Positions 6,972 through 26,460 of a stretch of DNA of 64,000 bases are shown here, in pieces; position 1 is the stretch's first letter, and the number at the start of each line of letters is the position of its first letter. The notes under the pieces are model-generated. The model searched no databases, was not told the DNA's origin, and was given only the letters and a program-made list of their open reading frames with translations. The position numbers were made by a program, and so were the translations under genes. Origin of the DNA: Verrucomicrobia bacterium Tous-C9LFEB. GTDB taxonomy: Bacteria; Acidobacteriota; Terriglobia; Terriglobales; Acidobacteriaceae. The stretch lies in assembly GCA_903970445.1 (NCBI GenBank), contig CAJCIP010000062.1, positions 1-64,000 of the forward strand. Direction: 5' to 3'.

Positions 6972-8843
6972 ATGTCTTGCATCTCAAATAGTTCGGCGCT
7001 ACGATACCGCGACTGCTCAAGCATGTCTACAAGCACACAAGTCGCAACCCATCTCCTCCGATCTCGTATCGGGAAGGTATGCATTGCCCTGACGGGCATT
7101 TCGGCAGAAGAGATGATCGAACGCGCCACGGAGGCGCTCAAAGAAACTTCGTTCATCGAACTTCGTCTGGATTATCTGCCGAAGCCCGCGAATGCAATTC
7201 CGTTACTGAGTGAGTTCCTGAACGCCCACGGTGGTGTAACAGTGATAGCAACCTGTCGTTGCGAAGAGAACGGGGGCAGGTTCAAGGGCTCGAGCAAAGC
7301 TGCCTGCGAGGTTTTGATGAAGGCGGCTGAGGCCGGCTTTCACCTCGTCGATCTCGAACTAGAATCTGCCGAGAAGCTGCCAAAAGACACTGTTTCGAGA
7401 ATCCGCCTTTCAGGCGCCGGCGTGATGATCAGCTATCACGACTTCAAAGCGACGAAGGATCTTGAGAAGGTCTACCAGCGAATCGAGCCGTTTGCGCCGG
7501 ACTTTGTAAAGATCGTTTCTACAGCTCGGTCACTGGGCGACAACCTGACAATGATGCGTTTTCTGGAGCAAATGGAAGATCGCTCCAACGGCAGCCTCGT
7601 CGGAATTTGCATGGGCGAGCCCGGAGTGATTTCGCGGATCCTCGGGCTCCGTGCCGGCTCGGCCTTCACGTTTGCCGCCGCGAATACAGGCGAAGAAACG
7701 GCTCCCGGCCAGATCACAGCACGTGCGCTCATTGAGACCTTTCGCATTGAGGGTGTGGACAAGGCCACCAAAGTTTACGGAGTGGCGGGGGAGCCGATAC
7801 GCTCCTCTTTGTCACCGCTCATGATGAACGCAGCGTTCCGCCGGGAAACGGTCAACTCGGTGTATTTGGCGTTACAAACGGCAAAGGCTGAAGATCTCAT
7901 AAAGCTCGCGAAAGAAATCCCTCTTCAGGGCTTGAGCGTGACGATGCCGCTTAAAGAGACTGTCATTCCTCTGCTCGAGCGATGCGACGCACTTTCAACG
8001 AAGATTGGTGCCGTTAACACAATCCTGCGTGCGCAGGATGGCAAGTTCTATGGGTTCAATACTGACGTTGCCGGAATTGTTGGGCCGCTGGAACGGCGCT
8101 TGAACTTGAAGGGCGCGAGAGTTCTCGTTCTCGGTGCGGGAGGAGCGGCACGAGCGGCCGTGTTTGGATGCCGAGATAAAGGAGCCGAAGTCTGGGTATG
8201 GAATCGAACTTCGGAGACGGCACAGAAACTCGCCAAGCAATCTGGAGCAAAGAGCATAAAGAGCGAAGCTGTGCCCAAGATGACGTTCGATGTTGTTATC
8301 AACGCAACGCCGGTAGGCATGAACGGTTTAAAGGGCGCACCACTCCTTGACGTCGCAGAGCTTAACACGCGGCTGGTGTTTGATTTGGTGTACAACCCGC
8401 TCGAAACGCCGCTGCTCCGAGCTGCGCGCTCCAAAGGCTTAGCGGTCATTTCGGGTGTCGAGATGTTTGTCGCCCAGGGCGTGCGGCAGTTCGAAATCTG
8501 GACCGGGAAACCAGCTCCGGCAGAAGACATGCTGCGCGTCGTGCTTCATTCGCTCCGTCAGGCTGCGGAAAAATCCGAGGCACCTATTCAGGATGTGCCT
8601 GCAGCCATGAACGTCTCACCAAGCGTTCCACGGGCTCCTTCTACGGATGCAGTGGAGGCGGCTCGGGCCGCCGCGAAGGCTACCGTCCGGAGGACGTCGA
8701 ATCCTGCCGAAGCTATCACCGTGCGAGCTTCGAAACGATTGGAAGCGGCGAAGCCAGAACCGATGGCACCCGCGAAAGCAACCAAGCCGACGGCCAAAAA
8801 GTCACCGAAGCAGCTGCCGAAACCAAAAAGCACAAAAAGATAG
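6972..8843 (+). CDS. aroDE: Bifunctional 3-dehydroquinate dehydratase / shikimate dehydrogenase
   Basis: Catalyses two successive steps of aromatic amino acid synthesis: 3-dehydroquinate to 3-dehydroshikimate, then NADPH-dependent reduction to shikimate. Residues 34-260 are a type I dehydratase with His156 in SYHDF and the Schiff-base Lys180 in FVKIVSTA. Residues 265-530 are shikimate dehydrogenase, with VAGEPIRSSLSP at the substrate site, the FNTDVAG strand and the Rossmann loop VLGAGGAARAA. The order is that of the plant enzyme. About 90 C-terminal residues form an Ala/Lys/Pro-rich basic tail not needed for either fold. ATG at 7023 (residue 18) is an alternative start, since residues 1-30 are not part of the fold. 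Confidence 0.93.
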   Translation: MSCISNSSALRYRDCSSMSTSTQVATHLLRSRIGKVCIALTGISAEEMIERATEALKETSFIELRLDYLPKPANAIPLLSEFLNAHGGVTVIATCRCEENGGRFKGSSKAACEVLMKAAEAGFHLVDLELESAEKLPKDTVSRIRLSGAGVMISYHDFKATKDLEKVYQRIEPFAPDFVKIVSTARSLGDNLTMMRFLEQMEDRSNGSLVGICMGEPGVISRILGLRAGSAFTFAAANTGEETAPGQITARALIETFRIEGVDKATKVYGVAGEPIRSSLSPLMMNAAFRRETVNSVYLALQTAKAEDLIKLAKEIPLQGLSVTMPLKETVIPLLERCDALSTKIGAVNTILRAQDGKFYGFNTDVAGIVGPLERRLNLKGARVLVLGAGGAARAAVFGCRDKGAEVWVWNRTSETAQKLAKQSGAKSIKSEAVPKMTFDVVINATPVGMNGLKGAPLLDVAELNTRLVFDLVYNPLETPLLRAARSKGLAVISGVEMFVAQGVRQFEIWTGKPAPAEDMLRVVLHSLRQAAEKSEAPIQDVPAAMNVSPSVPRAPSTDAVEAARAAAKATVRRTSNPAEAITVRASKRLEAAKPEPMAPAKATKPTAKKSPKQLPKPKSTKR

Positions 8844-11464: not shown

Positions 11465-13234
11465 CTATTTCATCTGACGATTTTCAACGTCCTCTGTTCC
11501 TGAAAGAAGGATGGCGAGGGTTACGGGTGGAATTGTCATTGTTCGTCCGTTCAGCGAGACGCCTTCACGCGAGATGAGCGCCGGAGCTTCTCCTTCAAGC
11601 AAGTCGAACATATAGGGCGCATCTCCAAAATTGACAAACACGCGTACTTCATCACGATGCATCATTAAGGTCTTTCGAACACTGTCTGAGGACACAATTA
11701 GCCGATGCATGCTGCCGTCATTAAGGCAAACGGAACTGCGACGGAGCTTGATAAGCGCTTTGGTCCAGGCGAGCATTTCCGCGTGCTTGCCTTCCTTGAT
11801 CTCGTCCCAATTCAGCTTCGACCGTTCAAACGTTTCCATGTCCTCCGGATTCGGTACGTCCGCTCCAAAGCCGAACGCCGCAAAATCATTTCTGCGGCCC
11901 TCGGCCACGAGTTTGCGCATGTCTTCGTCTTCATGGTCGGCAAAGTACAGGAACGGGGAGGATGTCACCCACTCTTCACCCATGAAAAGCATTGGAACGT
12001 AGGGCGCGGTGAGCACTAGACCAATAGCGACTTTCGCCGCGTCCAGACCACAAAGATGTTCTAGACGCTCACCGAACGCGCGATTCCCTACCTGATCGTG
12101 GTTTTGATCGAAGTGGACGAAGTGGTGAGCGGACAAGCCTTCTACAGGGCGGCCATGCTTGTGCTTTCTATACTTCGAGTACTCGCCGTCGTAGATGAAG
12201 GCGTGTTTCAAAGCTTTGTGCAGGTCGGTGATGGAACCGAAGTCATCGTAGTATCCCATGCCGGGCTCTTTGGTGTAGAGCAATGTGAACAAGGAGTGGT
12301 GAAAGTCATCGCTCCATTGGGAATCCATGCCGTAGCCATTCGCTTCGCGAGGTCGAATCACGCGCGGATCATTGAGGTCGCTTTCTGCGATGAGATAGAA
12401 GTCTTTATTTAGGGTTGAACCGAGACGCTCTACCTCGATAGAAAGCTGCTCCATGAAATGGACCGCGGAACGGTCGATAAATTCATGAACCGCGTCAAAG
12501 CGGAGACCGTCGCAGTGATACTCGCGCAGCCACATGAGGGCGTTGTCGATGAAGAAGCGTCGTACTTCATCACTGCCGCCTTCGTCCAGGTTGACGGCTT
12601 CGCCCCACGGCGTGCGATGTTTGCTGGTGAGGTATGGCGCGAACTTGTTGGCATAGTTCCCAACCGGTCCGAAGTGATTGTAAACAACATCAAGAATGAC
12701 GCTTAGGCCCTTTGCGTGGCATGCGTCCACAAAGCGCTTCAGGCCGTCCGGACCGCCATATGGCTCATGCGTAGCGAACAGAGCGACACCGTCGTAACCC
12801 CATCCACGTTCCCCCGCAAATTCTGCAACAGGCAGGAGCTCAAGGTGGGTGACGCCTAGATCGGCAAGATAGTCGAGGTGCTGGATAGCACCATCGAACG
12901 TGCCTTCTTTGCTGAATGTCCCAATGTGTAGCTCGTAAATGACTGCGCCACTCTTCAGGCCGCCTCGCCACGACTGGTCATGCCATTGAAAGCTCCCATG
13001 GTCATACAGGCGGGAGGTACCGTGGACGCCGTCGGGCTGGCTGAGGCTGCGTGGGTCAGGGTATGGCGTTGGATCATCGTCAATCAGGAACGCGTACTGG
13101 TCGTCGCACTCTGCCTCCGCGACTTCCAGGTTCCACCAGCCACGCTTATTGGGTTTGTCCATTGGAATGACCTTGTCTCCGAATTGCAGAGCCATCTTTG
13201 TTGCCTTCGGAGCCCAAATCCCAAACCTATGCAT
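11465..13234 (-). CDS. treZ: Malto-oligosyltrehalose trehalohydrolase TreZ
   Basis: Releases free trehalose from maltooligosyl-trehalose by cutting the alpha-1,4 bond next to the trehalose unit. GH13 protein of 589 residues with an N-terminal beta domain (1-90), the (beta/alpha)8 barrel from about 95, the catalytic nucleophile Asp247 in GLRFDAVHEF and the acid Glu284 in IAESDLNDPRV. The C-terminal beta domain carries the usual ARTKALIKLRR-like helix before it. AGGAGA lies five bases before the ATG. It follows treY by 32 bases, so both are expressed together. Substrate specificity is assigned by the adjacent TreY as well as by the TreZ-type barrel spacing. Confidence 0.95.
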   Translation of the reverse strand: MHRFGIWAPKATKMALQFGDKVIPMDKPNKRGWWNLEVAEAECDDQYAFLIDDDPTPYPDPRSLSQPDGVHGTSRLYDHGSFQWHDQSWRGGLKSGAVIYELHIGTFSKEGTFDGAIQHLDYLADLGVTHLELLPVAEFAGERGWGYDGVALFATHEPYGGPDGLKRFVDACHAKGLSVILDVVYNHFGPVGNYANKFAPYLTSKHRTPWGEAVNLDEGGSDEVRRFFIDNALMWLREYHCDGLRFDAVHEFIDRSAVHFMEQLSIEVERLGSTLNKDFYLIAESDLNDPRVIRPREANGYGMDSQWSDDFHHSLFTLLYTKEPGMGYYDDFGSITDLHKALKHAFIYDGEYSKYRKHKHGRPVEGLSAHHFVHFDQNHDQVGNRAFGERLEHLCGLDAAKVAIGLVLTAPYVPMLFMGEEWVTSSPFLYFADHEDEDMRKLVAEGRRNDFAAFGFGADVPNPEDMETFERSKLNWDEIKEGKHAEMLAWTKALIKLRRSSVCLNDGSMHRLIVSSDSVRKTLMMHRDEVRVFVNFGDAPYMFDLLEGEAPALISREGVSLNGRTMTIPPVTLAILLSGTEDVENRQMK

Positions 13235-13266
13235 TCCTATCTCCTGATTCTCTTAGCAACCACGAT

Positions 13267-15918
13267 CTACGCTTGGCGGTTGAGCAGCGCGACCGGGAAA
13301 TCCTTTAGCAAGACTGAGAGATCCACCCTGCCGCCAGTGAAGTCTTCACCGGTAAGTTCGTTTTTCCATGTGCCCGCAGGCAGTGCAATTGCCGTGTCTG
13401 ACCAGTTCGGCGTTGAAGAAAGTGTGCGAAGTGGCGCGACGCCAATCACCTGATCGCCTCGCTGCACTGCAACCACATTTTCTAGTCGCGCACCGGATGC
13501 GAACAACGGCCTGTAGTCTGCTTCCGCTCCGAAGGCCTCTCTTTTCGCCTTCCGAAGCCGAAGCGCGCGATGCAAAAGCCACAACTTCGGCAGACCGTCG
13601 TCCATGCGCGCTGTTATGTCTGCTGGGCTAAGAGTTTGCGCTTCTTTCAGCAACTTTCGGCGCAGATCGAAATCTACTGGTCTCCGGTTGTCGGGATCAA
13701 CGAGCGACAAATCCCATAACTCCGCGCCTTGATAAAGGTCAGGAACACCAGGGCAAATAGATTTGAGCAGTGTCTGTGTGAGCGAGTTGATGCGCCCTGC
13801 ATGCTTGACCCTGTCAACGAAAGCTTCAAAGTCTGCCATGAAGATTTCATCATCGAGGATTTGTTCGATGAATGACTTGAGCGCATTTTCGTAATCAGCG
13901 TTGTTGCTTACCCAGCTCGTCCGGAGCTTGGCTTCGCGCATGGCCTTCATCATGTACTCGGTGACGCGCTCTTTGGTGATGGGCCACGCGCCTAGCAGCG
14001 TTTGGTACAGGAACCACTCAGTGCCGCGATCAGGTAGGCCTGCGTCCGTGCGAAAGCTGGCGTTCATTTCGTTCCAGCGCCACACTGCATCGCCAAAGTC
14101 ATCAGGAATCTCGCTCAGCACAGCCAGACGAGCACGAACATCGTCTGAGCGCTTGGTGTCGTGCGTGCTTAGAGTCGTCATCGTCTCGGGATGAGTACGC
14201 TGCATGGTCGCGTTGTACTCATGAAACTCCTGGACGGTGAGACCATCGCGAGCTGGATCAGAGCCGACCTCATTCAAGCTGGTGAGGCGGTTCGAGCAAT
14301 AGAACGCCGTGTCTTCCACACCCTTGGCCATGACGGGGCTGGTGAATTGTTGGAACCGTGCAACGAACTCCGCTTCGTCCGTCCCTTTTTCCTTCAGGGT
14401 AAGAATGTCGCGTATGAAAGTGAATAGACCTTCATCGATATCCGTCCGCCTGTCACTCGCGCATTCGGTCGCCTTTCGAATGACGTCGCGGTCTTCATCG
14501 GTAATCTCTTCACGTTGCGGCACCACGTAGGTGCGGTACACAGCAAAGCACGCGCCGATTTCCCTGATCGCACGCCGCATCTCAGCTCGGGTGAAATCAC
14601 GATACTCGCGATGGTTCTCGCAGATGTTCACGAGAATATTTGTAAGTCTGTTGACGTCACTCCCTAATGCTTCCTGCTCGACGTTGAGCTTCTTGTCATG
14701 TGCGACCGCAGAAAACGTGGCAGTGTCACCTGTAAACTCCGCGTAGATTTCTCCCAGCCGAAGCACGCCATCCTGATCGACGAGCAAACCGTTCACCACG
14801 TTGAGGAAGTCATAGCCGCTGGTTCCCTGCAGCGGCCACTCTTCGCGGAGAAATTCACCCGGCTCGAGAATTTTTTCACCGACGATCCACGCGTCCGGAG
14901 CACAGTTGCGTAGTCGCTGGCAGTACTCCAATGGATCACGCAGTCCGTCCGGATGATCGATGCGTACACCGTCAAGCACACCCAGCTTCAACCACTTCAC
15001 AATCAGCGCATGAGTCTCATCGAAGACATATTCACGCTCTACACGCAGACCAATTAACGTATTTACATCAAAGAAGCGCCTGTAGCCAAGCTGCTGATCC
15101 GAAGCCTTCCAGTACGCCAGTCGAAAGTTCTGGCTGTTCAGAAATTCATCGAGAAGATCGGGAATACTGTTGAGCTCCTTAACCGCGCGATCGATTGCCT
15201 GACAGCTTGCTTCGTTCTCAGAGCATTCGCGATCCAACAGGCCGTTCACAACGTTCTTGTCTCGGTGCCGCGCAAGAACAGTGCGCCGGTCATAAAAGGC
15301 GGGCTTCGGCAGACGGCCATAACTCGCTGCTAGAAAACTCAAGGTGTCAGAGCGTGCGTAGTCGGCAGCGCGGCTAAGAAGATTGCTGAGGCTTTCCGGG
15401 GCTACGGGAAGAGTTTGCCCCGATGCCTCGACAAGAAATGTGCTTCCGATGCGAATCACCTTGATGCCACCGTCATCGAGGACGCGACCATATTGATCGC
15501 CCAGAATGGGCACTAACACTTTTTCGCGAAGACGCTCCTCCGGAGAGTTCCAGTCGATGTCAAAGAAACTCGCGTATCTGCTGCTTACCCCGTTCTCGAG
15601 CACGTCCCACCAGTAACGGTTCTGCTCGCCAAGGCTCATGTGGTTCGGCACGATATCCAGAACCTGGCCCAACCCGTTCTCGCCGAGAATCCTACAGAAA
15701 CGTTCGTGTGCGGCTTCTCCACCGAGCTCTTCGTTCACCTTCCGGTGATCCACTACGTCGTAGCCATGCATGCTGCCGGGAGCTGCCTGTAAATACGGTG
15801 AACTGTACAGATGGCTGACGCCGAGATCCCAAAGGTAGTCAGCGACCGCTGCCGCATCGTCAAACGTGAATCCTTTATGAAGTTGCATGCGGTACGTCGA
15901 CGCTGGCGTTTTCGACAT
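13267..15918 (-). CDS. treY: Maltooligosyl trehalose synthase TreY
   Basis: Intramolecular transglucosidase that turns the reducing-end alpha-1,4 bond of a glucan chain into alpha-1,1, giving maltooligosyl-trehalose for TreZ. The 883-residue GH13 protein begins with the typical TYRMQLHKGFTFDDA, then YLWDLGVSHLYSSPYLQA. It carries the nucleophile Asp in GVRIDHPDGLRDP, the acid Glu in WIVGEKIL, and a C-terminal FTGG(R)VDL region of the family. The length matches TreY exactly in type (700-900). ATG at 15918 has GAAGGGA about 11 bases upstream. A 12-base palindrome lies 31 bases before the start. Confidence 0.95.
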   Translation of the reverse strand: MSKTPASTYRMQLHKGFTFDDAAAVADYLWDLGVSHLYSSPYLQAAPGSMHGYDVVDHRKVNEELGGEAAHERFCRILGENGLGQVLDIVPNHMSLGEQNRYWWDVLENGVSSRYASFFDIDWNSPEERLREKVLVPILGDQYGRVLDDGGIKVIRIGSTFLVEASGQTLPVAPESLSNLLSRAADYARSDTLSFLAASYGRLPKPAFYDRRTVLARHRDKNVVNGLLDRECSENEASCQAIDRAVKELNSIPDLLDEFLNSQNFRLAYWKASDQQLGYRRFFDVNTLIGLRVEREYVFDETHALIVKWLKLGVLDGVRIDHPDGLRDPLEYCQRLRNCAPDAWIVGEKILEPGEFLREEWPLQGTSGYDFLNVVNGLLVDQDGVLRLGEIYAEFTGDTATFSAVAHDKKLNVEQEALGSDVNRLTNILVNICENHREYRDFTRAEMRRAIREIGACFAVYRTYVVPQREEITDEDRDVIRKATECASDRRTDIDEGLFTFIRDILTLKEKGTDEAEFVARFQQFTSPVMAKGVEDTAFYCSNRLTSLNEVGSDPARDGLTVQEFHEYNATMQRTHPETMTTLSTHDTKRSDDVRARLAVLSEIPDDFGDAVWRWNEMNASFRTDAGLPDRGTEWFLYQTLLGAWPITKERVTEYMMKAMREAKLRTSWVSNNADYENALKSFIEQILDDEIFMADFEAFVDRVKHAGRINSLTQTLLKSICPGVPDLYQGAELWDLSLVDPDNRRPVDFDLRRKLLKEAQTLSPADITARMDDGLPKLWLLHRALRLRKAKREAFGAEADYRPLFASGARLENVVAVQRGDQVIGVAPLRTLSSTPNWSDTAIALPAGTWKNELTGEDFTGGRVDLSVLLKDFPVALLNRQA

Positions 15919-15948
15919 TCGTTGGAGATTCCCTTCGTCGCAGGTTCG

Positions 15949-15960
15949 AGATTCGAATCT
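15949..15960. promoter_or_regulatory. 12-base perfect palindrome upstream of treY
   Basis: AGATTCGAATCT, flanked by GCAG-type and CTGC-type arms that lengthen the symmetry imperfectly. It is located between the GH15 stop and the treY start. Position and symmetry suggest an operator or a short RNA hairpin controlling treYZ within the longer operon. No regulator gene is adjacent. Confidence 0.3.
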
Positions 15961-16080
15961 GCACCTAGTAATGAAGCTAAGGTCTTGATCTGCTAGGCGC
16001 GGCTATAGAACCAGAGACAGTTCGCCCTGAATGGGTTGTTAGAACAGTAGAAGCTGCCGCGGTCGCAACAGGTTGCATGA

Positions 16081-17925
16081 CTAGCCGGGCTGGTGGCCGG
16101 CTTCGGGTTTCCACTGCCCTGAGATCGCAAGTGCCGCGTGCGCGAGCGAAATGTGCGTCAATGCCTGCGGAAAGTTGCCAAGCATTCGCTTTGCTATCGG
16201 ATCGTACTCTTCACTCAGCAGCCCAACGTCATTACGGAGCTTTAGCAGACGCTCAAACATTTCGCGCGCCTCGGTCTTTCGTCCGCTCAGCCAGTATGCT
16301 GTGACCAACCAGAAGCTACAGGCCAAGAACGTTCCCTCGGAGCCCTTGAGTCCGTCAGGCGATCGCTCCACGTTGTAGCGAGCGACAAGACCATTACGAA
16401 GGAGACGCTCTTCCACGGCGGCAACCGTACCAAGAATTCGAGGATCATCCGCTGGAAGAAATCCGACCATAGCCATTCTGAGTAAGCTGGCATCGATCGT
16501 TTTCGAGCCATAGCTTTGCGTGAAGCTGTTGAGGCGCTTGTCGAAGCCCTTCTTGCAAATCTCGTGGTGAAGCAGATCGCGATTCTTCTTCCACCTCTTC
16601 AGGTCACCTTTACTGCCGTAGCGTTCGTGATTTTTGATCCCACGGTCCAGGGCGACCCAGGCCATTACCTTGCTGTGCACGAAGTGCTTGCGACCGCCAC
16701 GGGTTTCCCAAATGCCCTCGTCTGGTAACGTCCAAATGTTGCATACGTGGTCAATAATCGATGCTTCCAGGTCTGCTGACGGGGTCCGAACATCGTCATC
16801 CACCTGCGGCGCGCGGCTGAGAGCGAGTGCGACTTCACCATAAACATCTAACTGGAACTGACCTGCGGCGGCGTTCCCCATGCGGACCGGCTTTGATTTT
16901 TCGTATCCTGACAGCCATCCTGCTGTCCACTCGGGAAGGCGGTGCTCTCCAGCAAGGCCATAGACGCTTTGCACCTGCTTTGACGATCCGGCAACGGCAC
17001 GTAGCAACCATCCGCGCCAATGGAGAGCTTCTTCGGTATAGCCCGCACGCATCAGCAGAAGCAGGGTGAAAGAAGTGTCTCTCAACCAGCAGTAACGGTA
17101 GTCCCAGTTCCGTTCGCCGCCTAAAGCTTCCGGCAAAGACGTTGTCACCGCCGCAACCATACCGCCGGTAGGCGCGTAGGTCATAGCTTTCAGAGTCATC
17201 AGGCTTCGATGAACGGCTTCTTTGTAGTCGCCTTCGTACGCGTTCTTCGCGCTCCACTCCGTCCAGAAGTTCTGCGTATCCTTCAGCGCATCATCAACTG
17301 CGACTGACTCTGGAAGGTCTTCAAACGAGTTGCTGTACGTCAGCACAAAGCAGGTTCGGTACCCTTCGCGCGTGATGAAGGTTGAGACTGTGGAAAGTCC
17401 CTCGCCATGCAATTCCGGAGCCTTGCCTCTTGCACATTCGCTTCGCAGAATGACCCGGTCAGGGCCGGCCATGGCATGCAACTCATGATTTGCCCTTGTG
17501 ACCCACGGCACCGTCATTCCATAGTCGAAACGAAGAACGAGATCCATCCGCATAGCAACCTTGCCGCTGACGCCTTCCACGATCCGTATGACATGCGAGT
17601 GCTTGCCGCGGGGGGGCATGAAGTCGGTGATACATACTTCGCCGTCCTTAGTGACGAAGGTGGTCTTGAGAATCATGGTGTCGGGCAGGTACCGGCGCCG
17701 GACCTCGAGGATGGGTCGCTCTGGACATATACGCCAGAATCCGTTTTCACCCGTGCCGAGCAAGCTTGCGAAGCAAGCGGGAGACGCAAAGGATGGCCAA
17801 CAGAGCCAATCAATGGAGCCGTCACGACTAACGAGCGCGGATGTTTCAAGGTCGCCGATGATGGCGTAGTCTTCAATGCGCGCTGCGTGCCGCGGCTGTT
17901 CTCTCTTACCAAACCATCCTGCCAA
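16081..17925 (-). CDS. Glycoside hydrolase family 15 (glucoamylase/trehalase type)
   Basis: Inverting hydrolase that releases glucose from the ends of alpha-glucans or splits trehalose. The N-terminal beta domain shows GDLETSALVSRDGSIDWLCWPSF, and the (alpha/alpha)6 domain carries the general acid in DEGIWETRG and the general base in LLSEEYDP, both in normal places. At 614 residues it fits the bacterial GH15 group that includes actinobacterial trehalases, so glucoamylase and trehalase cannot be told apart from sequence alone. There is no signal peptide, so it is cytoplasmic. The start is TTG, supported by GGAGG six bases upstream. First gene of the minus-strand trehalose operon, 162 bases before treY. 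Confidence 0.9.
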   Translation of the reverse strand: MAGWFGKREQPRHAARIEDYAIIGDLETSALVSRDGSIDWLCWPSFASPACFASLLGTGENGFWRICPERPILEVRRRYLPDTMILKTTFVTKDGEVCITDFMPPRGKHSHVIRIVEGVSGKVAMRMDLVLRFDYGMTVPWVTRANHELHAMAGPDRVILRSECARGKAPELHGEGLSTVSTFITREGYRTCFVLTYSNSFEDLPESVAVDDALKDTQNFWTEWSAKNAYEGDYKEAVHRSLMTLKAMTYAPTGGMVAAVTTSLPEALGGERNWDYRYCWLRDTSFTLLLLMRAGYTEEALHWRGWLLRAVAGSSKQVQSVYGLAGEHRLPEWTAGWLSGYEKSKPVRMGNAAAGQFQLDVYGEVALALSRAPQVDDDVRTPSADLEASIIDHVCNIWTLPDEGIWETRGGRKHFVHSKVMAWVALDRGIKNHERYGSKGDLKRWKKNRDLLHHEICKKGFDKRLNSFTQSYGSKTIDASLLRMAMVGFLPADDPRILGTVAAVEERLLRNGLVARYNVERSPDGLKGSEGTFLACSFWLVTAYWLSGRKTEAREMFERLLKLRNDVGLLSEEYDPIAKRMLGNFPQALTHISLAHAALAISGQWKPEAGHQPG

Positions 17926-18135
17926 TCAAGGCCTCCGGCAAAGATCACCTGGGACCGGCAACCGGACCGTCCGGCTATCGCATCCCTTTGCCTGATACTG
18001 GGCAGGCGGCGTGTGGGCGTCCACTTGTGCAATCTTTCTCTCTCAACCTTGAGATGCACGTGAACTGAAGGCGGCAAACGAAGACGTCGAAAACCAGGCA
18101 AGTTATGGAACTAGAAGCGCGAGGAGGCGCCCAGA

Positions 18136-20193
18136 ATGAAACCCGAGAACGGACGATCCCGCGTCATTATTGAGGAAATCAGCCCTGTCATCGATGGCGG
18201 TCGTTACCCCGCCAAACGTGTCGCAGGAGACCAGGTGAAGGTTACAGCGGCGATTTTCAGCGATGGGCATGACCATGTCGCTGCCCGTCTCCTGTATCGC
18301 CCTGCTTCAACACAGGCCTGGAAGACAGTTCCGTTCACCCCGCTTACGAATGACATGTGGGAGGCCGAGTTCGTCGTGGAGGAGCTCGGCGAATGGTTCT
18401 TCACGATTGAAGCTTGGATCGATCACTTCGATACCTGGGTGCATGATCTCGGCAAGCGCCTCGCGGCCCAGCCCGATCCGCAGGAGCCCACGCAGCAGGT
18501 GGTAGGGCCACAGGATATCCCTCTCGCGCTACGCATCGGTGCTGCACATTTGCAAGCCGCCGCTACCAGGGCAAAGGGCGCCGACGCGAAGAAGTTGACG
18601 GCAGCGGCGACAGAATTGCTCTCGCTGGCTGATAGGAATCACTCGCATTACGCATCGCCAGTTGACGAGAATCTGGTCGAAATCGCCGCCAAATATCCAG
18701 ATACGAGCCACTCCACGAAGTGCGGCAGAGAACTTCCACTGTGGGTTGACCGCGAGCGCGCACGCTTCTCCAGCTGGTATGAACTTTTCCCAAGGTCCTG
18801 CGGTGTAATGCCAGGCCAACATGGCACCTTCCGCGACGTGATTGCGCGTATTCCGCAGATCGCGCTCATGGGATTCGACATTCTCTATATGCCGCCAATC
18901 CATCCAATCGGTGTCGCTTACCGCAAGGGAAAAAATAACTCTGTCACGGCGGAGCCTGGCGATGTCGGCAGTCCATGGGCAGTTGGCGCGAAGGAAGGTG
19001 GCCACACAGCGCTGCTTCCGGAACTCGGCAATCTCGACGACTTTGACGGGTTGGTGAAAACAGCACAAGCGAACGGCATGGATGTTGCCTTAGATATTGC
19101 TTTTCAGTGCTCCCCAGATCATCCCTGGGTTACCGAACATCCTGACTGGTTCGTCATTCGGCCGGACGGCACCATTCAGTACGCTGAAAATCCGCCAAAG
19201 AAGTACCAGGACATTTATCCACTGAACTTTGAATCGAATGACTGGCAGGGTTTATGGGACGCACTCTTGGGTGTTTTCACGTATTGGATGGATCGAGGCG
19301 TCCGCGTCTTTCGTGTCGATAACCCACACACGAAAGCATTGCCGTTTTGGGAATGGTGTATCGCTGAGATCCACAAAGAAGCGCCGGATGTCATCTTCCT
19401 CGCTGAAGCCTTCACGCGCCCCCATGTAATGTATTCGCTTGCAAAGAGTGGATATTCGCAGGGCTATACATACTTCACATGGCGAAACACAAAGGCCGAC
19501 TTAGAGGCTTACTTTGATGAAATCTGCAACCCGCCCGTCCGCGATTTCTTCCGGCCCAACGTCTGGCCGAACACCCCGGATATTCTTCACGAGCAGCTGC
19601 AAGTTGTGGATCCCGACGAGCGCCGATCCGTCTTTCTCCAGCGAGTCATTCTTGCCTCAACGCTATCGGCGAATTATGGCATCTACGGCCCAGCCTACGA
19701 GCTTTGCGAAGGCCGCGCCGCTAAGCCTGCAGCAGGCAAGAAGGGTTCTGAAGAATATCTGGACAGTGAGAAATATCAGCTACGCACGTGGAATTTAGAA
19801 GATCCGATATCGATTGCGCCGACGATCACGCTACTCAACCAGATTCGCCATGAGAATCCTGCGTTGCAGCGCAACGAGGGGCTCTGGTTTCACACCGCTC
19901 AAAATGATCAGATCATGGTCTATTCGAAGGCGACAGAAGACTTTGCCAACGTAATTCTGATTGTAGTCAACCTCGATAACAAAGGCGAGCAAAGTGCATG
20001 GATGAAGCTGCGTATGGACAAACTCGGGTTGCCCTGGGACAGTGAATTCGTAGTTGAGGACCTGCTTACGAACAGGATCTACACCTGGAAAGAATGGAGC
20101 TATGCTGCCCTACAACCAGAGCTGCCCGCCCACATTTTTCGCATCATTCGGCCTGCGGTTCATTCCGACAAAGCCTCTTTGAGCGCAGCCTGA
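18136..20193 (+). CDS. glgE: Alpha-1,4-glucan:maltose-1-phosphate maltosyltransferase GlgE
   Basis: Extends alpha-1,4-glucan two glucose units at a time using maltose-1-phosphate. The GH13_3 protein has an N-terminal beta domain (1-110), a helical insert domain and the catalytic barrel from about 215. The nucleophile is in FRVDNPHTKALPFWEW and the acid in IFLAEAFTRP. The barrel entry sequence SWYELFPRS is diagnostic for GlgE. A strong GAGGAGG lies eight bases before the ATG. The donor is supplied by the maltokinase domain of the treS gene 0.8 kb downstream. Divergent from GH15. Its last 34 bases overlap the 3' end of the racemase gene on the other strand. Confidence 0.95.
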   Translation: MKPENGRSRVIIEEISPVIDGGRYPAKRVAGDQVKVTAAIFSDGHDHVAARLLYRPASTQAWKTVPFTPLTNDMWEAEFVVEELGEWFFTIEAWIDHFDTWVHDLGKRLAAQPDPQEPTQQVVGPQDIPLALRIGAAHLQAAATRAKGADAKKLTAAATELLSLADRNHSHYASPVDENLVEIAAKYPDTSHSTKCGRELPLWVDRERARFSSWYELFPRSCGVMPGQHGTFRDVIARIPQIALMGFDILYMPPIHPIGVAYRKGKNNSVTAEPGDVGSPWAVGAKEGGHTALLPELGNLDDFDGLVKTAQANGMDVALDIAFQCSPDHPWVTEHPDWFVIRPDGTIQYAENPPKKYQDIYPLNFESNDWQGLWDALLGVFTYWMDRGVRVFRVDNPHTKALPFWEWCIAEIHKEAPDVIFLAEAFTRPHVMYSLAKSGYSQGYTYFTWRNTKADLEAYFDEICNPPVRDFFRPNVWPNTPDILHEQLQVVDPDERRSVFLQRVILASTLSANYGIYGPAYELCEGRAAKPAAGKKGSEEYLDSEKYQLRTWNLEDPISIAPTITLLNQIRHENPALQRNEGLWFHTAQNDQIMVYSKATEDFANVILIVVNLDNKGEQSAWMKLRMDKLGLPWDSEFVVEDLLTNRIYTWKEWSYAALQPELPAHIFRIIRPAVHSDKASLSAA

Positions 20194-20861
20194 ACATGGA
20201 TGGCCGTGGTGTCGAACAGGGGAACTGGACTATCTTCGCCTGAAATCAGCAACATAATTTCTGTGCAGCCGAGGATGATTGCCTCAGCTCCGCGCTCTAC
20301 TAATCGCTGGATTACGTCACGGTAGAACTGGCGAGAGGCGTCCAGCGTTTGCCCGAGGCACAGTTCGCTGAAGATGACCTTGTGCACGTTTGCGCGATCA
20401 CCTTCTTCTGGAATGAGAACCTCGAGCCCAAAGCCTTCAGCCACACGTTCCCGATAGAACGTTTGCTCCATGGTGTAGAGCGTCCCGAGCAGACCCACCT
20501 TCTTCAAGCCCGCCTGTGCGATGCGTGCTCCTGTCACATCCGCAATGTGCACCAGAGGAATGCCGGCGGCAGCCTGGACTTCGTCCGCCATGCGATGCAT
20601 GGTGTTGGTGCAGATCAGCAATAGTTCGGCGCCTGCTTGCTCCAGCGCCTGTGCACACCCGATCATCTTCTTTGTGAGAGCAGCCCAGTCGCCGGCACGC
20701 TGCAATGTGGCGATTTCGTTGAAATCGACGCTAAACAAGATGCACGGTGCTGAGTGAAGATCGCCAAACCGGGCTCGAACTGTTTCATTCAGGAGTCGGT
20801 AATATTCCGATGAACTCTCCCAGCTCATCCCGCCGATAAGGCCGATCGTCTTACATCGCAT
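20160..20861 (-). CDS. Aspartate/glutamate racemase family protein
   Basis: Cofactor-independent amino acid racemase of the YgeA/aspartate racemase type. The two catalytic cysteines are visible in LICTNTMH and ILGCTEIMLL, and the N-terminal strand is TIGLIGGMSWESS, characteristic of the family. ATG at 20861 was chosen because GGAGAG lies six bases before it; an upstream ATG at 20891 adds ten unlikely residues. The length (233 residues) is normal. The gene points against glgE and overlaps its last 34 bases, which is unusual between such different enzymes. The substrate (Asp, Glu or another amino acid) cannot be chosen from the sequence. Confidence 0.87.
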   Translation of the reverse strand: MRCKTIGLIGGMSWESSSEYYRLLNETVRARFGDLHSAPCILFSVDFNEIATLQRAGDWAALTKKMIGCAQALEQAGAELLLICTNTMHRMADEVQAAAGIPLVHIADVTGARIAQAGLKKVGLLGTLYTMEQTFYRERVAEGFGLEVLIPEEGDRANVHKVIFSELCLGQTLDASRQFYRDVIQRLVERGAEAIILGCTEIMLLISGEDSPVPLFDTTAIHVQAALKEALSE

Positions 20862-21014
20862 GTACATCTCTCCAGGGCTTGCGCGGCTCATTCTGAGGAT
20901 ATCTGCAAAAAGGTGGTGTATTGCGGAAGAACACGACCCCTGGAATCGGAACGATGACCCACCCTTGTAGGACTGCCGTGCATCTCAGACTGATGAGTCA
21001 AAATCTGTAACGCT

Positions 21015-24000
21015 GTGATGACTCGCAACTCGCCTGGGAGAGACCTTTTGCCCGAAAAGAAGTTCAGCAGCGTCAGCGATCAACTTTGGTACAAAGACGC
21101 GATCATCTATGAGCTTCACGTGCGTGCCTTCGCCGATTCCAACGCCGATGGGATCGGTGACCTACAAGGCCTCATTTCGAAACTGGACTACCTGCAGGAG
21201 TTGGGTGTCACCTGCCTGTGGCTTCTGCCATTTTTCCCATCGCCGCTGCGTGACGATGGGTACGACATCGCGGACTACATGTCCGTGAACCCTTCGTATG
21301 GCACAATCGAAGACTTTCAGCAGTTCCTCGATGAAGCGCACTCACGCAACATGCAGGTGATGATCGAGCTGGTCATCAATCACACGAGCGACCAGCATCC
21401 ATGGTTCCAATTGGCGCGCAGGTCGCCCAAAGGTTCGCCCGAACGAAACATGTATGTGTGGAGCGACACGGACAAGCTCTATGACGGTGTGCGCATCATT
21501 TTCACCGACACGGAAAAGAGCAACTGGACATGGGACGAGGTGGCACAGCAGTACTACTGGCATCGCTTCTTCTCACACCAGCCCGACCTGAACTTTGACA
21601 ATCCGGCGGTGATGGAAGAGGTCCTACGAGCCATGCGCTTCTGGCTCGACATGGGAGTCGACGGACTGCGATTGGACGCGATTCCTTACCTCATTGAACG
21701 CGATGGAACGAGTTGCGAAAACGTCCCCGAGACCCATGTCAAGATCAAAGCGATTCGTAAGGTGATCGACGAGGAATATGAGAATCGTCTCATCCTCGCC
21801 GAGGCCAACATGTGGCCGGCAGATGTCCGGCCCTACTTTGGCGATGGTGATGAGTGCCACATGGCATTCCACTTCCCGCTGATGCCGCGCATCTACATGG
21901 CGATTCGGCAGGAAGATCGTTTGCCAATCACCGACATCATGGCACAGACGCCGGATATCCCCCCGAACTGCCAGTGGGGTATCTTCCTCCGTAATCATGA
22001 CGAGCTTACGCTCGAAATGGTCACAGACGACGAACGCGATTACATGTACATGGCCTACTCTGCTGATCCACGCATGAGGATCAATGTGGGTATTCGTCGG
22101 CGCCTTGCTCCGCTCGTCGACAATAACCGCCGGCGCATCGAGCTTCTGAACTCACTTCTTTTTTCCATGCCTGGAACGCCCATCATGTACTACGGCGACG
22201 AGATCGGCATGGGAGACAACATCTATCTGGGCGACCGCAATGGCGTGCGGACACCGATGCAGTGGAACTCCGACCGCAATGCCGGCTTTTCGACGGCCGT
22301 GCCGGCAAAACTTTATTTTCCCGTAATCATGGACCCGGTTTGGGGGTACCAGGCGATCAATGTTGAAGCGCAGCAGAGCGACCCCTCATCGCTGCTGCAT
22401 TGGACGCGCAACATGATTGCCCTGCGGAAACTGTTTCAGGTGTTTGGACGAGGGTCGCTGGAGTTTCTACACCCTGAAAACCGTAAGGCTCTTGCATATA
22501 TTCGCGATTACCAGAGCGAAGACGGCTTGCATTCGGAAACGGTTCTCTGTGTCGCGAATCTTTCTCGCTTTGCTCAGCCTGTATCGCTCGATCTCTCGAA
22601 GTTCGCAGGAAGACAGCCCGTCGAAATGCTCGGCTATGTTCCCTTCCCTCCTATCGATAACACGCCGTATGCGTTGACACTGGCGCCATACAGTTTCTTC
22701 TGGTTGGAACTGCAACCGGCCGCACCGCAGGCGGAAACCCCCGTCCTAATCTCTACGCCCGAGGAAGCTGCTCCAACGCTCACTGAGGGCGTGGCCACGA
22801 CCGCTTCGCTCGCGAATCTGCTTGAAGGTTCAGGCCGAGAGATGGTCCACGACCTGCTTCCTGAATATCTCGTGCAGCAGCGCTGGTTTGGCGGCAAATC
22901 TCGCACGATTACCTCAGCGGAGATCGCTTCTTCGATCAAGCTGGATGATGAGTTTGCCATAGCTACCGTTGCGGTCAAGTATCAAGACAACAGTGAAGAA
23001 ACATACCAGCTGCCACTCGGCATCGCGACGAGCGACGCGGCAGAAGATCTGAAAGCAAACAGCTCGAAGGCAGTATTTGCATCTCTCTCAGAAAGCGGAG
23101 CTGTACTTTACGATGCCTCGGCAAGCGAGCATTTTCGGCAGCGCTTGCTTCAGTTGTTCCTTCGTTCCGAGGATGGTGCAGAAGCGAGTGAGGACGAAGT
23201 CGCGGTTTCAAGATCGCTCTTTTTTGATCCCGCCAAACTGGTCGGGTTGCCGTCGCGCGTAGGTTCCGCGGAGCAGTCGAATACGAGCATCCTCTTCGGC
23301 AACCAGGCCATAATGAAGCTCTTTCGCCGGCTGCAACCGAGCAAGAATCCGGATGTAGAAATTTGTGCATTCCTTACCGACGTCGCCCACTTCGATTACA
23401 TTCCTCCTTACCTCGGGGAAATTCATCGCGTGTCGGACGGCGCGACGCTTGCCTTTTTGCAGGCATTCGCGCCTAACGAAGGAGACGGATGGGCCTGGTT
23501 TACTGAAGAACTGAATCAATATTTCGAATTGGTGGCGAACTGCCCTCGGCCCCAGAGTCTCGGCAGTTCGCCGAGCTTCCTCCAATCAGGTGAGCTGCCG
23601 GGAGAAGCTCGTGAACGAGCCGGGCTCTCCATCGACGCAGCCTCGGTGCTCGGCACACGAACTGCGCAGATGCACCTTGCGCTTGCCACACCAACCGAAG
23701 ACGCCGCTTTTGCTGCAGAGATAACAGGTAAGGACAAATTGTCCGCTGACGCCAATCGCCTGCTGCAACAAACCGAGATATCTTTGAGCGCGCTCGAGCG
23801 AACAATGCCATTGCTAGCAGAAGAGGCTAAGGAAGACGCCCGATGGCTTCTGGAAAACCGTGACAGCGTACGCGCACGAGCTACCGTTTTTACCTCGATG
23901 CTTCCTGAAAGCGCAGGCCGCCGAATTCGCATTCACGGCGACTACCATCTCGGCCAACTGCTGCGCTCGCGCCACGACTTCCTCATCGTTGATTTTGAAG

Positions 24001-24386
24001 GCGAGCCGGCCCGGCCGCTTGAGGAGCGTCGAGAAAAGCAATCGCCTCTCCGTGATGTCGCAGGAATGCTGCGCAGCTATAGCTACGCGGCACAGTCAGC
24101 GGCAGATCGCTATGCACAGCGGCGGCCCGATCAGGCAGCAGCATTGCCAACGTGGGCTACGCTCTGGGAGAACGCAATTGGGACAGCCTTCCTGCAGGCT
24201 TACCGCGAAAAGATTCACGAGACTCCGGGTCTGATCCCACAGCAGGATGGAGCCGCCGAAGCATTACTGGCGTCCTTCATCTTGGAAAAATGCCTCTACG
24301 AGTTGCTGTATGAGTTGAACAACAGACCGACATGGGTGCATATTCCCCTAAGCGGCCTGCTAGCAATTGTGAAGAAGCCATCTTGA
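21015..24386 (+). CDS. treS: Fused trehalose synthase (TreS) / maltokinase
   Basis: Two enzymes in one chain. Residues 20-575 are TreS, which interconverts trehalose and maltose. The GH13 barrel shows [16 protein letters not shown], the acid Glu in LILAEANMW and [10 protein letters not shown]. Residues 600-1123 are a maltokinase (Pep2) that makes maltose-1-phosphate from [22 protein letters not shown] marks its start, the catalytic loop is HGDYHLGQ and the metal site DFEGEP. The product feeds GlgE. The start is GTG-ATG at 21015/21018 with a weak site; TTG at 21048 with GGGAGAG just upstream is an equally good start and loses nothing conserved. Followed after 22 bases by the GT-like gene. Confidence 0.94.
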
Positions 24387-24408
24387 GTGCAAAAGGTAAC
24401 TGACGTCT

Positions 24409-25647
24409 ATGTCTTCTTTGCCAATGACAGAAGTTTCGGACCATAGTTCGAGTAAAACGCTGGTCAACGACAATGTTTCTGCTCACGCAACAGTTCTCGT
24501 GTGCCTTCCTTCCATGTCAGCTGAAGGCGTTCACGCCTTGGCCGGAGACCTGAAGGCTACTTCACCGCATATAAATTTTCTGTTAGCGAGCTGTAACACG
24601 CCGTCCGACTCAATCGACGGAAGCGGTCGTGTGCGAATGATTGAATATCCAGATCAACCGGCACACTCCGGTTGGATACTCACAGCTTCGGATTATTTAA
24701 ACGCTGCGAACCTCGCGCTTGAGTATAGGGCTTCAGCGACGATGCTTCTTGGAACTGAGGCGGCAACCTTACCCCACGAAGCTTTGCAGACCCTCTACAC
24801 TGCGGCTCTTGAAGGAGGCGGTGACCTAATTCTGCCGCGTTACCCAGCCGGGCCGCACGAAGGTTTGGTGAGCGCAGCCTTGCTCCACCCTTTGTCGCGG
24901 GCCCTCTATGGAATCGACGCGCGCATGCCGTTACCTCTTGATGTCGCGTTCTCTCCTCGCATGGCTTCACGTTTTCAAACTGCTGCAAAGCGCGCCGTCA
25001 GTTCTGTCGGTGGCGAGGCGCTACTTTGGCCGGCAACGGAGGCGGCGGTGGCTTCCTTCCTGACTCATGAGGTTGCTGTTGGGCGCAGAGTACTGCCGCA
25101 GCCGGCGGTAGATGATCTGAATTCACTGCTTGCCCATATCGCTGGATCGCTATTTGCGGACATCGAGACGAAAGCAGCTTTCTGGCAGCGCGTGCGCTCC
25201 GTCATACCCGCCCAAAAAACCAATGCCACTGCAAAGCAGACCGCAGGCGATGACGATTTGGCAGAAGTCCGTCCTATGATTGCGGACTTCCGCAACGCAT
25301 ACACCAATCTTCAGGAGATTTGGTCTTTGGTGCTCCCGCCTCAGTCGCTCCTCGCGCTCAAGAAGCTTTCGCTAGCAGAACCCGAAGCATTCACGATGCC
25401 TGCTAATCTTTGGGCGCGTACGGTGTACGATTTCGTTCTCGCATTCCGCCTTCGCACCATAAACCGCGGACATCTGCTGGGTGCACTCACGCCGTTGTAT
25501 TTAGCGTGGGTAGCATCGCATCTGCGTATTGCGGATGACGACCAGACGCGGGCAGAGCAGCACATTGAAGAAACATCTGCTGCATTTATCGCTGAGAAGC
25601 CGTACATCGTTTCGCGGTGGCGGTGGCCTGACCGCTTCAACCCCTAG
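24409..25647 (+). CDS. Glucosylglycerate-synthase-like protein with degenerate catalytic site
   Basis: Not a named enzyme. The middle (residues 110-190) and C-terminus (335-372) follow the pattern of GpgS/GgS-type glycosyltransferases (GT81-like): LPRYP...EGLVSAALLHPLSRALYGIDARMPLPLDVAFS, later NLWARTVYDFVLAF and LTPLYLAWVAS. In those enzymes the first region contains a DxD metal/donor motif and then PIGGDFG. Here the corresponding positions read GTEA (115-118) and PLPLDVAFS, so the metal site is missing. The chain may therefore be a pseudoenzyme or have another function. 22 bases after treS and 51 bases before the membrane protein; AAGGTAA lies nine bases before the ATG. Cytoplasmic, no membrane segment. 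Family assignment is by memory of motifs. Confidence 0.6.
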   Translation: MSSLPMTEVSDHSSSKTLVNDNVSAHATVLVCLPSMSAEGVHALAGDLKATSPHINFLLASCNTPSDSIDGSGRVRMIEYPDQPAHSGWILTASDYLNAANLALEYRASATMLLGTEAATLPHEALQTLYTAALEGGGDLILPRYPAGPHEGLVSAALLHPLSRALYGIDARMPLPLDVAFSPRMASRFQTAAKRAVSSVGGEALLWPATEAAVASFLTHEVAVGRRVLPQPAVDDLNSLLAHIAGSLFADIETKAAFWQRVRSVIPAQKTNATAKQTAGDDDLAEVRPMIADFRNAYTNLQEIWSLVLPPQSLLALKKLSLAEPEAFTMPANLWARTVYDFVLAFRLRTINRGHLLGALTPLYLAWVASHLRIADDDQTRAEQHIEETSAAFIAEKPYIVSRWRWPDRFNP

Positions 25648-25698
25648 TCTTCCGTGCAACGAACCGACATCAACGATTTTTCCGAAGGAGCTACACAG

Positions 25699-26460
25699 AT
25701 GGGTCAGCAAATCGCAAGCGCACTGCATCAATCCATGGACCGCGTTCTCGTGATGCTGGTGAGATTTCTTCCTGGTTTGCTGGCGTTTTTCCTCGCATTA
25801 TTGATCCTCTGGTTCATCGGATGGGCGATATCGGCGCTTGCAAGGCGCATTCTGACGTCTGCCCGTTTCGATGAACGTGTCGCGGCGCGAGAAGGGACGG
25901 GCTCAGCTGCAAGTCTTGCAGATTGGTCACCGGCGAACTCGCCCACACTTCTGGTCTCGCGAGCCATTCAGTGGATCTGCATACTGGCGGGCCTTGCACT
26001 CGGGATCTCCGCATTCAACGCGTCGTATTCCTCCACTCCGGAAATCTCACTCTTTCTGCTGCCTTATCTCACGCACCTCACCGGTGCAATCCTTCTGCTG
26101 GTCATTGGTGTGCTTCTCGCACGCTTTTTGTCACGCTCGGTCCTTATAGGATCGGTCAATGCTCAGCTGCAGTACGCTCGCTTTCTTTCGCTCGGTGTGA
26201 AATGGCTTGTTCTCGTTCTCACGGCCGCTATGGCGCTGGATCATTTGCGCATTGCCGGAGGCATCGTGGACTTGGCCTTTGGCATTCTGTTCGGTGGCAT
26301 CGTATTGACGTTGTCGCTCGCGATCGGCCTTGGCTCGCGTGACCTTGTCAGCCGGTCGATCGAGAAGACTATCGATAAGCCGTTGCCATCGCGTCCGGTT
26401 GAGTTTTCACGAGAGACTGACGTCGCAGAACCGCCCCGCCCGAAGCTACGGCATTTCTAG
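25699..26460 (+). CDS. Five-helix membrane protein, CmpX/mechanosensitive-channel-like
   Basis: 253 residues with five hydrophobic helices at about 14-45, 80-102, 115-150, 160-180 and 188-215. The last one is followed by a Gly-rich turn (FGILFGGIVLTLSLAIGLG) and a polar tail. This is the pattern of the 'conserved TM helix' proteins (CmpX-type) related to small mechanosensitive channels, but the soluble MscS beta domain is missing, so a channel role is not proved. ATG at 25699 is backed by AAGGAG eight bases upstream; a reading frame from 25654 starts before that site. It is third in the treS run, which suggests a link with osmotic stress. Confidence 0.7.
   Translation: MGQQIASALHQSMDRVLVMLVRFLPGLLAFFLALLILWFIGWAISALARRILTSARFDERVAAREGTGSAASLADWSPANSPTLLVSRAIQWICILAGLALGISAFNASYSSTPEISLFLLPYLTHLTGAILLLVIGVLLARFLSRSVLIGSVNAQLQYARFLSLGVKWLVLVLTAAMALDHLRIAGGIVDLAFGILFGGIVLTLSLAIGLGSRDLVSRSIEKTIDKPLPSRPVEFSRETDVAEPPRPKLRHF

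Follow-up and report, generated by a model that had tools for sequence, protein, structure and literature searches.

In the window, as we call the whole 64,000-nt stretch of DNA analysed here, the region 11465-26460 forms a trehalose/alpha-glucan cluster with the following genes:

11465-13234, minus strand: TreZ, malto-oligosyltrehalose trehalohydrolase (TIGR02402, 704 bits, above cut-off)
13267-15918, minus strand: TreY, malto-oligosyltrehalose synthase (TIGR02401, 931 bits, above cut-off)
16081-17925, minus strand: GH15/trehalase-like hydrolase, a homologue of which adjoins the pseudo-GT gene in four relatives without adjacent treS
18136-20193, plus strand: GlgE maltosyltransferase (PF11896 and PF21702), by synteny an upstream cluster member in many relatives
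21015-24386, plus strand: fused trehalose synthase (TreS)-maltokinase, TreS-Mak (TIGR02456, 938 bits; TIGR02457, 417 bits; both above cut-off)
24409-25647, plus strand: putative pseudo-glycosyltransferase (pseudo-GT), 412 amino acids, with its first base 22 bases past the TreS-maltokinase stop at 24386
25654-26460, plus strand: MscS-transmembrane-helix protein, 268 amino acids from the GTG at 25654, matching PF05552 only, without the MscS beta domain

The 22-base spacing had been noted in an earlier reading made without database searches (the sequence-only reading) and was confirmed. The same reading called the gene fused in position to treS; it is an adjacent gene, and there is no fusion. An apparent 754-aa fusion in two relatives (L035 and L077) was merely an open frame crossing the treS gene in another frame. 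The true start of the MscS-like gene is probably the ATG at 25700, located behind an AAGGAG, rather than the GTG at 25654. The structural model of its product had too little confidence (pLDDT 63.5, pTM 0.39) for a search against known folds. A second TreZ is encoded on another contig of the genome (C129).

Used as a single query, the pseudo-GT had no match in Pfam, in NCBIfam above noise or among PDB sequences, and it was matched neither by the NCBIfam GpgS model (NF010496) nor by the Pfam MgS domain (PF21969). A plasmid search with the protein gave no match. Its 13 first relatives, 45-49% identical in the best segments, come from acidobacterial MAGs, and an alignment of these 13 reached distant relatives phylum-wide, in 75 of 297 genomes. 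The family set comprised 129 distinct acidobacterial members with their surroundings, namely 92 without the lysine of a GKG motif (degenerate) and 37 intact. Intact relatives carry GKG, D(S/A)DLRS, PIGGD and GAKIHD. In profile-profile comparison, the window family was connected with five intact relatives at probability 100 (E 8e-49, 379 columns). Matches of the intact relatives to NF010496 were weak yet unambiguous, at E 3e-11 to 3e-13, and stayed under the curated cut-off; PF21969 was above gathering in two of the three tested; intact members matching PF21969 include L039 and L041.

The AF2 model of the window protein was only fair (pLDDT 66 overall and 84-92 in its best GT-A blocks, pTM 0.54). 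It superposed on MgS with Z 15 (rmsd 3.0-3.1, 212-216 residues), on R. xylanophilus MpgS with Z 14.9 (rmsd 7.6) and on GpgS structures with Z 13.4-13.9 (rmsd 3.5-4.2, ~205 residues), and hardly any of its C-terminal part was covered by known folds. The resemblance to GpgS claimed by the sequence-only reading, which depended on a GT-A fold, was thereby upheld (GpgS Z ~13.5) and extended to MgS (Z 15). As modelled, the protein is a GT-A glycosyltransferase homologue with MgS, MpgS and GpgS as its nearest folds (Z 13-15). It shares the GT-A fold with glucosyl-3-phosphoglycerate synthase (GpgS, GT81) and mannosylglycerate synthase (MgS, GT78) but lacks their nucleotide- and metal-binding residues and matches neither family model.

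Two intact loci adjoin a gene for an MPGP-family phosphatase (TIGR01486, E 1e-68 to 1e-69) and further intact loci a GpgS_Meth-like gene, indicating that the ancestral role was very probably compatible-solute synthesis. The intact members possibly represent an uncharacterised compatible-solute glycosyltransferase family of Acidobacteriota. Six of them (L054, L063, L064, L068, L117 and L119) lie beside MPGP-family phosphatases or GpgS_Meth-like synthases, often together with an MscS-TM-like gene.

In GpgS, Lys114 (of PGK) lines the UDP pocket, the donor sugar is contacted by Asp134, Lys114 and Glu232, Asp136 is a metal ligand, and His258 is the counterpart of the MgS metal ligand His217; the position of GpgS Glu232 and MgS Asp192 touches O4/O6 of the donor sugar (PMC2581804). 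The window protein has Thr92, Gly115, Asp178, Glu117 and Leu229 at the positions of Lys114, Asp134, Glu232, Asp136 and His258, respectively, so that the sugar-contacting acid, Asp178, is the only such residue retained. All strings quoted in the sequence-only reading were located (PRYP at 143-146, LYG at 166-168, LTPLYLAWVAS at 360-370, GTEA at 115-118 and PLPLDVAFS at 174-182). Its proposal that the DxD and PIGGD motifs are replaced agrees with the profile-profile alignment, in which GTE falls on D-S-D and PLPLD on PIGGD, except that the D of PIGGD (Asp178) is kept. Beyond what that reading described, two further residues are lost, the GKG lysine (Thr92 here) and the metal histidine (Leu229 here), which gives degenerate positions at 92, 115-117 (G115-T116-E117), 176-177 and 229. 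Additionally, the acceptor-loop motif RHKxDGTITN has become AGPHEGLVSA.

These losses extend through the clade. Among the 87 treS-linked members, the GKG lysine is lost in all, the first Asp of DxD in 82, the His in 78 and the GG in nearly all, while the same donor and metal residues are invariant in intact members. What remains of the site is the second Asp in 44, the His in nine and the donor-sugar acid (D/E) in 85 of the 87. D-x-D is retained in treS-linked L050 and L115/L116, but the GKG lysine and the His are missing from each of these three. A second degenerate clade (L121-L144 and relatives) has kept more GT-A residues and has lost the lysine, the first Asp, the GG and mostly the His. 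The idea of a chance mutant was rejected, since degeneracy is shared by each of the 13 first relatives and by every treS-linked member. Neither of the two outcomes named by the sequence-only reading as refuting it occurred: the model resembles GT-A folds, and homologues that keep DxD fall into a group of their own, never located behind treS, while the sites of the treS-linked members are all degenerate. L050 sits on a long branch, with its intact DAD, and has treS-like genes on both sides.

The search for homologues beside treS suggested by the sequence-only reading showed an association. The treS gene lies directly upstream of 87 of the 92 degenerate members, and of 88 when L007 is included, where the end of treS is upstream on a cut contig; it lies upstream of none of the 37 intact members (Fisher p 3e-28 for treS linkage against site loss, describing one or few events, as the rows share ancestry). 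The remaining four degenerate members (L018, L020, L021 and L084) stand beside GH15 instead of treS and are nested within the treS-linked clade. Directly behind 91 of the 92 degenerate members comes the MscS-like gene, with the PF05552 helix only; among the 37 intact members, at least 15 have it in this position as well. At the linked loci, treS encodes a fused TreS-Mak in 40 cases and TreS only in 31. TreS, or its domain, is the likely partner because the linkage spans both forms; dependence on the maltokinase part was ruled out by the 31 unfused genes. In one genome (G406), two pseudo-GT copies (L123 and L124), 95% identical, each have treS upstream.

Across 150 genomes of the family, both genes were found in 73, a member of the pseudo-GT family only in four and treS only in 13. 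Among the four, G317 has an intact copy only, and the other three are 67-74% complete. Twelve of the 13 treS-only genomes carry a TreS-Mak that is ~46% identical overall and has no GlgE, pseudo-GT or MscS nearby; in the other one, the contig ends at treS. Because the treS-only genomes carry this more distant TreS-Mak, the pseudo-GT accompanies particular TreS lineages, with TreS as the common factor.

In trees rooted with the GpgS_Meth-like neighbours, intact members were basal. The degenerate state fell on one side of a branch with support 91 in the full unrooted tree and 70 in a small outgroup tree, and another quick outgroup tree split the degenerate members into two clades; both one and two origins are possible. 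Two genomes (G340 and G389) have one intact and one degenerate copy each, suggesting that the GT-MscS pair was first duplicated and then captured behind treS. The dN/dS values of 11 degenerate pairs (0.07-0.19) indicate purifying selection and rule out a decaying pseudogene. Catalytic residues were thus lost clade-wide under purifying selection, as is characteristic of a pseudoenzyme. The C-terminal part was the more constrained one in 9 of 11 degenerate pairs, and the GT-A part in 6 of 7 intact pairs. Accordingly, mean column information in the GT-A N half was 2.96 bits in intact members versus 1.76 bits in the window's clade, and in the C-terminal part 2.21 versus 3.32 bits. New near-invariant positions in the window's clade include Q260, R261, R263, G358, W367 and the tail 405-412 (RWPDRFNP). 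The C-terminal features of the pseudo-GT are:

residues ~286-370: conserved C-terminal helical part
residues 403-412: clade-specific tail RWRWPDRFNP

Such a shift of conservation is as expected if catalysis was abandoned and the function passed to a different surface of the protein. Judged from these sequence patterns, the non-catalytic character of the partner proposed by the sequence-only reading is favoured, since donor, metal and most acceptor residues were lost jointly and constraint moved C-terminally; the same joint loss leaves its other suggestion, a new donor chemistry, less supported. It is probable that the protein serves trehalose metabolism as a non-catalytic subunit or a regulator and is not an enzyme.

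The explanation towards which we lean is that a pseudo-glycosyltransferase without catalysis acts as a non-catalytic subunit of TreS and, with the MscS-TM-like protein, tunes flow by osmotic state. A GT-A protein descended from GpgS/MgS-type compatible-solute glycosyltransferases would have given up catalysis. Contact with TreS may be made by the C-terminal helical half and the tail RWRWPDRFNP, and the complex would activate, gate or tune TreS, and with it the trehalose/maltose-1-phosphate flow, the direction of the effect being conjectural. Osmotic state would be the input, with the MscS-TM-like membrane protein of the adjoining gene as the putative osmotic partner. TreS-Mak-GlgE together with TreYZ would be the trehalose-glucan system under the control of such a switch, because TreYZ is encoded in the window and OtsA was not found in the genome.

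A comparable arrangement is known from Thermoproteus tenax, where msc-gt-tpsp is an operon, termed unique to Thermoproteales; TPSP shows no TPS activity until GT binds, GT itself has no TPS activity, and MSC matches the MscS TM region only (PMC3634074). The same trio, a trehalose-forming enzyme with GT-like and MscS-TM-only genes, stands together in the window, but the parts are not homologous: T. tenax has a GT-B (GT4) protein as its GT and TPSP (GT20) as the enzyme (PMC3634074), compared with GT-A and TreS-Mak here. Binding and activation were shown in T. tenax; the three-part logic here is alike. Because this logic is the same, we propose by analogy that the pseudo-GT may be an activating or gating subunit of TreS. 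According to PMC6509496, mycobacterial TreS forms a stable two-protein complex with Pep2 at the entry of the GlgE pathway; the partner there is the maltokinase, whereas the maltokinase in the window is already fused to TreS. The yeast complex of Tps1, Tps2, Tsl1 and Tps3 also holds regulatory subunits resembling trehalose-synthesis enzymes, but it is eukaryotic, with TPS/TPP domains and sequences unrelated to those here (per PMC3634074). No report of such an arrangement with TreS was found in the open-access literature.

Several observations weigh against a non-catalytic TreS subunit. Some treS-linked members retain part of the site (the second Asp, the His, the donor-sugar acid or D-x-D), the AF2 model is only fair and its C-terminal part barely matched by known folds, four relatives adjoin GH15 instead of treS, and the linkage counts, non-independent by descent, may reflect one or two events. 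The acid at the GpgS Glu232/MgS Asp192 position, retained in nearly all treS-linked members despite the loss around it, would suit a sugar or nucleotide-sugar sensor, whose relic pocket would bind trehalose, maltose, M1P or a metal-free nucleotide-sugar and signal to TreS or the MscS-like protein. With the nucleotide lysine, DxD and His gone, and the retained acid perhaps structural, we consider this sensor unlikely.

A reading in which the protein pairs with the MscS-like membrane protein instead of TreS, with the treS linkage as mere co-regulation with trehalose metabolism, is quite unlikely. The pairing of GT and MscS predates the treS link and is more widespread, as the MscS-like genes behind intact members show, and L018, L020, L021 and L084 have MscS without adjacent treS; yet site loss follows treS linkage and not MscS linkage, and the C-terminal gains are confined to the degenerate clade. 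Metal-independent GT-A enzymes exist, and some relatives (e.g. L078 and L089) have kept the second Asp and the His, as might be expected if the protein were an active glycosyltransferase that needs no metal or uses an altered donor chemistry to make a trehalose- or maltose-derived product. Against it, the window protein lacks equivalents of Lys114, Asp134, Asp136, His258 and PIGG as well as the acceptor R/K/T, no invariant basic residue has taken their place, and conservation within its clade is lowest in the GT-A N half, so activity of this kind is very unlikely.

If a non-catalytic TreS subunit is correct, a whole clade turned a glycosyltransferase into a partner protein, and both intact relatives and intermediates with partial decay survive; GT-like subunits of trehalose synthases, demonstrated to date in a single archaeon, would then be suggested as a recurring solution. 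We further suggest, tentatively, that TreS, the GT-A pseudoenzyme and the MscS-like protein form a regulatory complex whose origin, through inactivation of a GT already linked to a channel-like gene, was separate from that of the archaeal TPSP-GT-MSC, and which couples trehalose/glycogen flux to turgor in Acidobacteriota. A non-catalytic TreS subunit would bear on the adjustment of trehalose and glycogen to drying and osmotic change in abundant soil bacteria, and the idea is directly testable by TreS assays in the presence and absence of the pseudo-GT.

Some minor observations concern the surroundings and the sampled genomes. A gene of the aspartate/glutamate racemase family (20160-20891, minus strand) lies between glgE and treS, and its end overlaps that of glgE. 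A 3-dehydroquinate dehydratase/shikimate dehydrogenase (AroD-AroE) fusion is encoded at 6972-8843 on the plus strand. Finally, in the pair L006/L011, a MAG filed as Limisphaerales (Verrucomicrobiota), one of those that gave the 13 first relatives, has a locus near-identical in sequence to that of an Acidobacteriaceae MAG, a likeness that makes misbinning likely.
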